From Streptomyces sp. Q6 (GTDB lineage Bacteria > Actinomycetota > Actinomycetes > Streptomycetales > Streptomycetaceae), in contig NZ_CP146022.1 of the NCBI RefSeq assembly GCF_036967205.1, positions 3,410,001 through 3,474,000 of the forward strand: a stretch of DNA of 64,000 bases, given 5' to 3'. Shown here in pieces: positions 21,011 through 23,222 of this stretch. Position 1 is the first letter of the stretch. Every line of letters begins with the position of its first letter. A program made the position numbers and the translations under genes. The notes beneath the pieces are model-generated. The model was not told where the DNA came from and did no database searches. It saw nothing but the letters and a program-made list of their open reading frames with translations.

Positions 21011-22591
21011 CTACTCCCACTCGATGGTGCCCGGCGGCTTGCTCGTCACGTCGAGCACGACGCGGTTGACGTCCGCGACCTCGTTCGTGATCCGGGTCGA
21101 GATCTTCGCGAGCGTCTCGTACGGCATCCGCGTCCAGTCCGCCGTCATGGCGTCCTCGGACGAGACCGGGCGCAGCACGATCGGGTGGCCGTAGGTGCGG
21201 CCGTCGCCCTGGACGCCGACGCTGCGGACGTCCGCGAGCAGGACGACCGGGCACTGCCAGATCTCGCGGTCCAGGCCGGCCGCGGTGAGCTCCTCGCGGG
21301 CGATGGCGTCGGCCTCGCGGAGCAGGTCGAGCCGCTCCTTCGTCACCTCGCCGACGATACGGATGCCGAGGCCGGGGCCCGGGAACGGCTGGCGCTGGAC
21401 GATCTCGTCCGGCAGGCCCAGCTCGGCGCCGACCATGCGGACCTCGTCCTTGAACAGCTTGCGCAGCGGCTCGACGAGTTCGAACTCGATGTCGTCGGGG
21501 AGCCCGCCGACGTTGTGGTGCGACTTGATGTTCGCGGTGCCGGTGCCGCCGCCGGACTCGACGACGTCCGGGTAGAGCGTGCCCTGGACCAGGAACGCGA
21601 CCTCGGGGCCGTCCTCCTGGAGGATCTCCAGCTGCGCCTGCTCGAAGACGCGGATGAACTCCCGGCCGATGATCTTGCGCTTGGTCTCGGGGTCGGAGAC
21701 CCCGGCGAGGGCCTTGAGGAAGCGCTCGCTGGCGTCGACGACCTTCAGGTTCGCGCCGGTCGCGGCCACGAAGTCCTTCTCGACCTGCTCGGTCTCGCCC
21801 TTGCGCATCAGACCGTGGTCGACGTAGACGCAGGTCAGCTGGGAGCCGATGGCCTTCTGGACCAGGGCCGCGGCGACCGCGGAGTCGACACCGCCGGACA
21901 GGCCGCAGATGGCGCGCTTGTCACCGACCTGGGCGCGGATCGCGGCGACCTGCTCCTCGATCACGTTGCCGGTCGTCCAGTCGGGCTTGAGGCCCGCGCC
22001 CCGGTACAGGAAGTGCTCCAGCACCTGCTGGCCGTGGGTCGAGTGCATGACCTCGGGGTGGTACTGGACCCCGTACAGCTTCTTCTCGTCGTTCTCGAAG
22101 GCGGCGACCGGGACGACGTCGGTGGACGCGGTGACGGTGAAGCCCTCGGGGGCGGCGGAGCAGGCGTCGCCGTGCGACATCCACACGGGCTGCTCGGCCG
22201 GGGTGCCCTCGAAGAGCGTCGAGTCGGCCTTGGAGACGGTGAGCGGGGTGCGGCCGTACTCACGGGCGCCGTTGTCGTCGACGGTGCCGCCGAGGGCCGT
22301 CGCCATCAGCTGGAAGCCGTAGCACATGCCGAAGACGGGGACACCCGCGTCGAAGAGCGCGCGGTCCAGGCTCGGGGCGCCCTCCGCGTAGACCGACGAG
22401 GGGCCGCCGGAGAGGATGATCGCCGCCGGGTTCTTGGCGAGCATCTCCTCGACCGGCATGGTCGAGGGAACGATCTCGCTGTAGACCCGGGCCTCACGGA
22501 CTCGACGGGCGATGAGCTGGGCGTACTGCGCACCGAAGTCGACGACCAGGACGGTGTCGGGGGCGGCGGCAGCGGAAGTCGCTGATGACAC
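21011..22591 (-). CDS. guaA: GMP synthase (glutamine-hydrolysing)
   Basis: Converts XMP to GMP using ATP and glutamine, the last step of guanine nucleotide synthesis. The 526-residue protein has an N-terminal class I glutaminase with Cys nucleophile in [15 protein letters not shown] and His/Glu in [12 protein letters not shown]. The ATP-pyrophosphatase P-loop is [15 protein letters not shown], and the dimerisation domain ends in the canonical [12 protein letters not shown], with [14 protein letters not shown] before it. Length and termini are those of bacterial GuaA. IMP dehydrogenase genes of the same pathway lie at 45855-48592. Confidence 0.98.
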
Positions 22592-22728
22592 GGGTTGCCT
22601 TCCGGCGGCGTTTAGCGGGGGGGTCGTACCAGTGATTCTAACGGTTCGGCCCGACCGGCCCTCAGGTCACGGGACCCTGCCCCGGACCCCGCCGCCCGAC
22701 CGCCCCCAGGGGCTCGTTGCGCCTGCGC

Positions 22729-22734
22729 TACACT
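22729..22734 (+). promoter_or_regulatory. candidate -10 element, leaderless start for leader peptide
   Basis: TACACT lies 8 bp before the leader ATG at 22742, so transcription would start at or next to the ATG, giving a leaderless mRNA as is frequent in Streptomyces. No convincing -35 hexamer is seen at 16-18 bp upstream. Confidence 0.4.
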
Positions 22735-22741
22735 CGACGCC

Positions 22742-22813
22742 ATGTTCACGCAGACGATGTACGTCTTTACCTATGGCAACCGGTCCGCCGGGTGCCATGG
22801 TCGTGCTGCTTGA
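22742..22813 (+). CDS. Phe/Tyr-rich leader peptide of chorismate mutase
   Basis: A 23-codon ORF reads MFTQTMYVFTYGN followed by RSAGCHGRAA and stop. Four of its first eleven codons are aromatic end-products of the pathway: Phe (TTC, TTT) and Tyr (TAC, TAT). It ends 109 bp before the chorismate mutase start, and hairpins able to form mutually exclusive structures lie between. This is the architecture of a ribosome-mediated attenuator in which scarcity of charged tRNA-Phe or tRNA-Tyr stalls the ribosome. It is too short for ordinary gene calling; no homologue search was possible. Confidence 0.6.
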   Translation: MFTQTMYVFTYGNRSAGCHGRAA

Positions 22814-22867
22814 GCCACTGACAAGCGACTTCCCAGGCGCCCCGGGCCGACAAGGCCCGGGGCGTCT
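22790..22867 (+). promoter_or_regulatory. candidate transcription attenuator of chorismate mutase
   Basis: A 14-bp GC-rich hairpin (arms 22835-22848 and 22854-22867, loop GACAA, one G-T pair) can act as terminator. Its 5' arm can instead pair over 7 bp with 22790-22796 (GGGTGCC with GGCGCCC at 22836-22842), forming an anti-terminator. A ribosome stalled at the aromatic codons (about 22745-22774) leaves 22790-22796 free; one that reaches the stop at 22813 masks it. No T-tract follows, so read-through control could also be by sequestration further downstream. Confidence 0.55.
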
Positions 22868-22922
22868 GGCGTTCGCGGGTCCTGCCGATCCGGGGCTGCC
22901 GTCCACGAGACAGGAGCCCACC

Positions 22923-23222
22923 ATGAGCCTCATGACCCCTGACACCGCCACGGAGTCGACCGGCGCCCGCACCGACGAGGCCGCCGAGCTGATCTCCGGC
23001 GCCCGCGACCGCATCGACGCCCTCGACGACCGGATCATCGGCCTCGTCCAGGAACGCATGGCGGTCTCCGCCGTCATCCAGGAGGCCCGGATCACCTCCG
23101 GCGGCCGCCGCGTGAACCTCTCCCGCGAGATGGAGATCCTCACCCACTACAGCGACGCCCTCGGCAAGCCCGGCACCGCCCTCGCGATGACGCTCCTGGA
23201 GCTGTGCCGGGGCCGGATCTGA
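22923..23222 (+). CDS. chorismate mutase, AroQ class
   Basis: A 99-residue all-helical mutase that converts chorismate to prephenate for Phe and Tyr synthesis. The AroQ core is clear: ARDRIDALDDRIIGLVQERM, AVSAVIQEARITSGGRRVN and the active-site-bearing REMEILTHYSDALGKPG. The ATG at 22923 is preceded by AGGAG at a good distance. It stands alone, without prephenate dehydratase or dehydrogenase, and has a Phe/Tyr leader ORF upstream that suggests end-product attenuation. Confidence 0.92.
   Translation: MSLMTPDTATESTGARTDEAAELISGARDRIDALDDRIIGLVQERMAVSAVIQEARITSGGRRVNLSREMEILTHYSDALGKPGTALAMTLLELCRGRI

Follow-up and report, generated by a model that had tools for sequence, protein, structure and literature searches.

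Chorismate mutase (CM) stands at the branch point to phenylalanine and tyrosine, which also feed many Streptomyces natural products, and the locus studied here raises the question of how a gene for this enzyme is controlled. The window (the whole stretch of DNA that was analysed, 64,000 nucleotides of Streptomyces sp. Q6) contains a short leader open reading frame between a CM gene and its divergent neighbour guaA, with the following features.

21011 to 22591, minus strand: guaA, GMP synthase, divergent neighbour (NF000848, 777.9 bits, cut-off 400).
22730 to 22735, plus strand: -10-like box TACACT (all of the 109 leaders have a NANANT box 6-7 nt 5' of their start).
22742 to 22813, plus strand: leader ORF MFTQTMYVFTYGNRSAGCHGRAA, 23 codons, ATG at 22742, stop codon TGA at 22811-22813 (kept in 109 of 110 loci).
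22766 to 22774, plus strand: proposed control codons TTT (Phe, 22766-22768), ACC and TAT (Tyr, 22772-22774), assigned from codon counts.
22912 to 22916, plus strand: AGGAG, from its sequence the likely CM ribosome binding site.
22923 to 23222, plus strand: CM, 99 amino acids, start codon ATG at 22923 (NF005894, 120.8 bits, cut-off 73; TIGR01808, 54 bits, cut-off 52.15).

We consider it likely, on the strength of sequence analysis, that this leader controls CM as a ribosome-mediated transcription attenuator, by sensing the charging of tRNA-Phe and tRNA-Tyr. The support consists of the anatomy of the leader, its conservation, its fixed rare codons, the covariation of two hairpins and the gene context, and from these we infer the transcription start site, ribosome stalling, termination and amino-acid response set out below.

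An earlier note on this DNA had described a 23-codon ORF with two Phe and two Tyr codons among its first eleven and a -10-like TACACT placed so that the ORF would be leaderless, and both descriptions hold: the residues concerned are F2, Y7, F9 and Y11, and exactly six bases separate the TACACT box from the ATG, so spaced that the leader mRNA is apparently leaderless. Across 109 leaders the -10 hexamer reads CATACT in 94, TACACT in 8 and otherwise in 7; the strict pattern TAnnnT passed just 28 leaders, and the looser NANANT was adopted for the count given above. A simple scan of 22592-22925 found no sigma-70 consensus promoter. We also observed a 236-codon open frame (window positions 22512-23222) that crosses the leader region in frame with CM, the upstream part of which looks like a high-GC artefact.

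The conservation of the leader was determined at 110 CM loci, of which 80 were the best of 438 relatives (named genomes, CM protein scan) and 30, the window's included, came from a family search of 150 genomes, 110 of which had a CM. At 109 of the 110 loci CM is preceded by a short in-frame ORF whose core resembles F-x-F-T-Y-G; the remaining one (L049) has an assembly gap (a run of N), with the RNA segments described below as 2 and 3 still visible upstream. The core reads F-(T/I)-Y-G, with Phe (99 leaders), Tyr (6) or Ser (4) two codons earlier, and the DNA pattern used to find it fixed the residues while leaving both Phe and both Tyr codons open. The peptides are 22-26 residues long and the distance from stop codon to core is identical in 103 of the 109 leaders; 108 of the 109 leader stretches of 170 nt are distinct, the loci being partly non-independent. 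An RNA model (R1) built from 106 leader stretches matched at full length, on the same strand and no more than 700 nt upstream of CM, in 102 of the 110 family genomes with a CM match. The eight CM-bearing family genomes without R1 beside CM belong to genera g5 (three) and g14 (five), and their CM matches are weaker. Most listed genomes of g14 match this CM weakly or not at all and lack a full-length leader next to a match, so that gene and leader seem to be missing together in this genus. Within the window's genome R1 gave one full-length match (8e-46), the others being partial or, once, very weak (E 9.3). Elsewhere, a full-length match far from CM, comparable in strength to those beside it, was found at G074:C4:1679816 (E 1.3e-9), as were weak full-length matches away from CM at G102:C1:3951828, 3970842 and 3971703, which have equal scores in the one genome.

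A separate observation concerns the motif GTCTCAnnATnCGAACC, which lies 55-59 bases upstream of the leader start in relatives (for example L041) and retains at least 11 of its 14 fixed letters at 83 of 108 loci, compared to at most 10 in shuffled controls. The motif is absent from the window, whose genome contains the 16-base form twice, each time with one mismatch. It recalls LtbR/NdgR sites, and we presume that it could be an LtbR/NdgR-like site.

The leader is short and carries codons for the amino acids of the pathway, and the choice of these codons is strongly biased. The earlier note had asked whether the aromatic codons are conserved in relatives, and they are: at the core, TTT occurs in 107 of 109 and TAT in 109 of 109 CM leaders, compared to TTT at 2 of 1685 Phe codons and TAT at 12 of 1330 Tyr codons in the guaA and CM genes of the same loci (counted in 108 guaA and 110 CM matches). 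In other genera of the family 20 more leaders were read, of which 19 have TTT and 19 have TAT, the exception being L154, which reads TTC and CAG at these positions and has no Tyr codon. No Trp codon occurs up to the Tyr codon in the 129 CM leaders (one genome is counted twice, as L107 and L150). Trp is found further along in 7 of the 109 and 9 of the 20 leaders, and since a stall at such a codon would probably reach into segment 2, late Trp was not counted as a control codon. The third base of TAT pairs in hairpin 1:2 (see below), so RNA structure may fix TAT; the third base of TTT is unpaired in the fold, and its conservation would need another reason, for example slow wobble reading.

Four leaders (L006, L028, L090 and L096) are frame-shifted by an extra base that alters the peptide end. 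A second inserted base creates a TAG in the new frame of L028 and L090, and a TGA 9 nt further on serves as the stop codon of L006 and L096; the RNA of segments 2 and 3 is nearly unchanged in all four, and the stop lies 3 or 9 nt further on. As these leaders retain the RNA and a nearby stop, it appears that codons are what is conserved in the first half of the leader, and RNA together with a stop in the second half.

Folding of the RNA from 22742 to 22880 gave -80.2 kcal/mol, compared to -55.7 (sd 3.7) in 200 shuffles, none of which was as stable (z -6.7). Three hairpins, each excluding the next, can be drawn from four segments.

22769 to 22801, plus strand: hairpin 1:2, segment 1 at 22769-22783 and segment 2 at 22788-22801, from the fold and covariation.
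22788 to 22845, plus strand: antiterminator 2:3, pairing 22788-22791 with 22842-22845 (CCGG/CCGG) and 22793-22796 with 22836-22839 (UGCC/GGCG), with an inner 5-bp stem of 22808-22812 (GCUUG) and 22822-22826 (CAAGC).
22833 to 22869, plus strand: terminator-like hairpin 3:4, stem of 22833-22848 with 22854-22869, 16 bp, followed by a short U run.

The terminator-like hairpin recognised in the earlier note is thus present, with a stem of 16 bp and not the 14 bp given there, and the 7-bp alternative pairing of 22790-22796 with 22836-22842 occurs in the sequence as it had been described and can be drawn longer. Segment 2, CCGGGUGCC (22788-22796), can pair with segment 3, GGCGCCCCGG (22836-22845), before the last arm is made, and the stretch 22785-22851 folds at -27.2 kcal/mol. 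Hairpin 1:2 is a new element, absent from that first description, and with it the classical four-segment attenuator plan is complete: the hairpins 1:2, 2:3 and 3:4 are mutually exclusive (2:3 being kept, with weaker evidence from covariation), the control codons lie over segment 1 and the stop codon lies beside segment 2. Rfam returned no match at the gathering score for the whole window; for 22700-22930 at E up to 10 it returned 25 matches, none near its gathering score.

We then assessed whether these helices covary, a check that had been proposed with the first description, by means of shuffles that leave the relatedness of the sequences in place. Hairpin 1:2 and the terminator, taken together, do covary. 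In alignment A1, which comprises 106 close sequences with little variation, 94.3% of their cells were paired, with 16 two-sided cells compared to 6.4 in shuffled alignments (reached in 0 of 500), and 6 two-sided pairs compared to 4.2 (reached in 58 of 500). In alignment A3, made with MAFFT from 39 hand-picked varied leaders (the window, 18 other loci and 20 from other genera), there were 10 two-sided pairs and 38 two-sided cells compared to 5.3 and 11.0 (0 of 500 each), and 92.3% of cells were paired compared to at most 49.1% when the structure was slid along.

The antiterminator is kept but nearly invariant, and here the outcome was divided. It was 98.9% paired in A1, with 2 two-sided pairs compared to 0.1 in shuffles; it was 82.6% paired in A3 (core helix 95.5%), where its covariation stayed within the shuffled range (53 of 500 shuffled alignments reached its two-sided pairs and 124 of 500 its score), so the aligned test did not bear it out. 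MAFFT misaligned the inner antiterminator stem outside Streptomyces (60.9% paired), and the stem was therefore counted by anchoring on the stop codon, which gave a positive result. Counted in this way, it is present in 111 of 129 leaders and absent from 18, as GCUUG/CAAGC (89), GCUUG/CGAGC (9), GUCUG/CAGAC (9), GCCUG/CAGGC (3) and GCAUG/CAUGC (1), and pairs in 38 of 54 distinct arm/loop combinations compared to a mean of 22.0 and a maximum of 30 in 2000 permutations. When combinations with the commonest arm, GCTTG, were left out, 12 of 24 paired, a subset within chance when the arms were shuffled (mean 6.8, maximum 13), compared to a mean of 3.4 and a maximum of 9 when the loops were shuffled. 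The energy of the 2:3 fold was no better than that of base-shuffled sequence (median z -0.42, 58 sequences).

The arrangement suggests the following course of events, in which masked positions are calculated with a general value for the ribosome footprint. Transcription would begin at the leader ATG or right beside it, with immediate loading of a ribosome. When Phe- or Tyr-tRNA is short, the ribosome would stall at TTT 22766 or TAT 22772 and mask segment 1. With the RNA covered as far as about 22780 or 22786, segment 2 would stay free and could then pair with segment 3, block the terminator and allow CM to be transcribed. When both tRNAs are charged, the ribosome at the stop codon (22811) would cover about 22793-22824 and mask most of segment 2 along with the inner stem of the antiterminator; hairpin 3:4 could then form and transcription would end. 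If the leader were untranslated, hairpin 1:2 would form, and termination would be expected as well.

The last step is the one for which an alternative deserves most weight. We regard it as fairly unlikely, though worth serious consideration, that the leader senses Phe and Tyr and has an output other than intrinsic termination, namely on CM translation, through Rho-dependent termination or through processing of the hairpin. A simple scan of 22592-22925 found no canonical U-rich terminator; against this, most of 101 relatives have a short U run behind the hairpin, with a T fraction of 0.72, 0.87 and 0.86 at the eighth to tenth base after GGGGCG and a run of at least three T in 66 and at least four in 21 of the 101, and several S. 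lividans leaders that are called attenuators, in the sections of PMC8079986 drawn on here, also have no U run. In the window, the full fold gives the ribosome binding site of CM (22911-22916) and the CM start mean pairing probabilities of 0.72 and 0.61, a partial pairing that would suit an effect on translation; however, about 50 nt separate the 16-bp hairpin from the CM start, and we saw no conserved pairing that involves the ribosome binding site. The S. coelicolor ilvB and leuA leaders, as presented in parts of PMC1262725, looked alike and were not classical attenuators in their behaviour. Attenuation by termination at hairpin 3:4 is nonetheless the reading that we favour.

To learn whether such leaders occur beyond the family, R1 was used to search 394 genomes of the class. 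Weaker full-length matches were found in family f17, which may be Streptosporangiaceae, where the next gene encodes a type I DAHP synthase (all three genes tested score above the cut-offs of NF006421 and TIGR01361) and the leaders read MQRNFWRFYGYRP...ALR or MRTAWSFWYGDGP...ALR. Twenty class loci were fetched, and 15 of them had a DAHP synthase leader; no leader was seen at L173, L186 and L187, and the R1 match at L183 was rejected because it lies on the wrong strand, its genome (G449) having a DAHP synthase leader on the other strand. Many class-wide R1 matches consisted of the terminator part alone (roughly model positions 77-113) and were discarded as similar-looking hairpins. At L169, in family f48, we observed a CM relative (43% identity) with a leader-like ORF, MLATVSFFYGHRDPVSVTAG, that contains Phe and Tyr but lacks Trp.

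A second model (R2), built from 15 DAHP synthase leaders, matched with E up to 1e-5 in 85 of the 394 class genomes (39 of f17, 35 of the window's genus and 11 others). DAHP synthase lies downstream at all of the best 30 R2 loci, 15 of which are from genomes outside the R2 set, and a leaderless Phe/Trp/Tyr leader was found by automatic scan in 27 of them, and the leaders of the other three, L222 among them, were recognised by eye (the DAHP synthase leader loci are L168, L170-L172, L174-L182, L184, L185 and L194-L223). Of the Phe codons in the 27 leaders 40 of 49 are TTT, and of the Tyr codons 26 of 50 are TAT; in the 30 DAHP synthase genes the counts are 0 of 134 and 2 of 170. The f17 leaders are like the CM leader in their plan, their use of TTT and TAT, their 1:2 hairpin, their GC-rich terminator and their match to R1, and differ from it in the gene that follows and in the addition of Trp codons in 29 of 30 (L222 has no Trp). 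Thus, with Phe/Tyr leaders at CM and Phe/Trp/Tyr leaders at DAHP synthase, codon content follows the enzyme. The two kinds of leader may be related by shared descent or may have arisen by convergence.

These data also bear on two weaker alternatives. It is very improbable that the conserved RNA, or its peptide, has its role in trans, whether as a small protein or as a small RNA produced by termination, with the link to CM being secondary: leader RNAs can act in trans (for example peTrpL), but the peptide ends vary, frame-shifted forms exist and 102 of 110 genomes carry the element upstream of CM. That the ORF is a chance one and only promoter and hairpin are conserved can practically be dismissed, as short ORFs are common in this GC-rich sequence but here the rare codons are fixed, start, frame and stop are kept at 109 of 110 loci and parallel Phe/Trp/Tyr leaders precede DAHP synthase.

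Returning to Phe/Tyr-responsive attenuation as the preferred reading, we put forward a broader proposal tentatively and with less than even confidence: that there is an actinobacterial family of aromatic-sensing attenuators in which the codon set matches the enzyme, sensitivity comes from the rare wobble-read codons TTT and TAT, and the leader acts as a sensor of tRNA charging with two or three inputs, any missing aromatic amino acid opening the gene. The codon rule and the fixed rare codons are the parts most worth specialist attention, and the natural frame-shifted leaders, together with the near-complete fixation of TTT and TAT, make a role for codon choice directly testable. If a conserved attenuator does act at CM, it would be a simple engineering handle. 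It would also be a place to test control by tRNA charging in a genus in which the ilvB and leuA results, as reported in parts of PMC1262725, are unclear.

The window's genome encodes a second CM (L192, G000:C1:2189792-2190028; NF006691 and TIGR01795 above cut-off), with no comparable leader in the 300 bases upstream, which indicates that the leader does not control all CM activity and that the CM studied here may not be the sole source of prephenate. A simple pattern scan of the same genome found no short ORF just upstream of the class II DAHP synthase gene (L188) and no comparable aromatic leader just upstream of three prephenate dehydratase genes. The scan did detect a trpL-like leader, MFAQLMTRTWWWTAHPAAH, at L188:2942, on the strand that does not carry the class II DAHP synthase gene, and this leader served as the pattern's positive control. 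At L189:1431 an ORF with two aromatic residues was noted.

Among the open-licence PMC papers that our searches listed, we found no report of a leader upstream of chorismate mutase in Streptomyces; an earlier computational prediction may exist. Table 4 of PMC8079986 contains eight leader peptides of S. lividans TK24, none of them before CM or assigned to Phe or Tyr. They are like the CM leader in being short ORFs, most of them described there as leaderless, followed by GC-rich hairpins, and for four of the eight (leuL1, trpL2, metL and thrL) the relevant passages describe no typical U-rich terminator (PMC8079986). A survey of actinobacterial amino-acid genes gives, in the portion cited here, structures for Trp, Cys and Leu metabolism and for ileS, and none for other pathways (PMC1262725). 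In the same account, mutation of the candidate regulatory leader codons of S. coelicolor ilvB left regulation unaffected (PMC1262725), and this non-classical behaviour may be taken as a caution against the attenuation reading. For S. clavuligerus, 150 premature transcription units are tabulated according to an extract of PMC8269248.

The nearest tested case is AroR, the Phe-Tyr-Phe leader that precedes aroF of C. glutamicum and reportedly responds to Phe and not to Tyr (PMC11802643 and PMC4046766, in the parts that treat it). Judged by that description, AroR is like the CM leader in being an actinobacterial leader with a Phe-Tyr-Phe peptide 5' of an aromatic-pathway gene and in working by attenuation. 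Unlike the CM leader, it controls a DAHP synthase, and its lack of response to Tyr would count against joint sensing of Phe and Tyr. E. coli pheL, as outlined in PMC11802643, likewise provides leader peptide attenuation at a chorismate mutase gene and answers to charged tRNA-Phe; it differs in belonging to another phylum and in preceding pheA, which encodes a bifunctional CM-prephenate dehydratase. Overall, although the CM case appears to be unreported, its sequence suggests classical attenuation by kind, which would work like pheL/trpL and resembles AroR.
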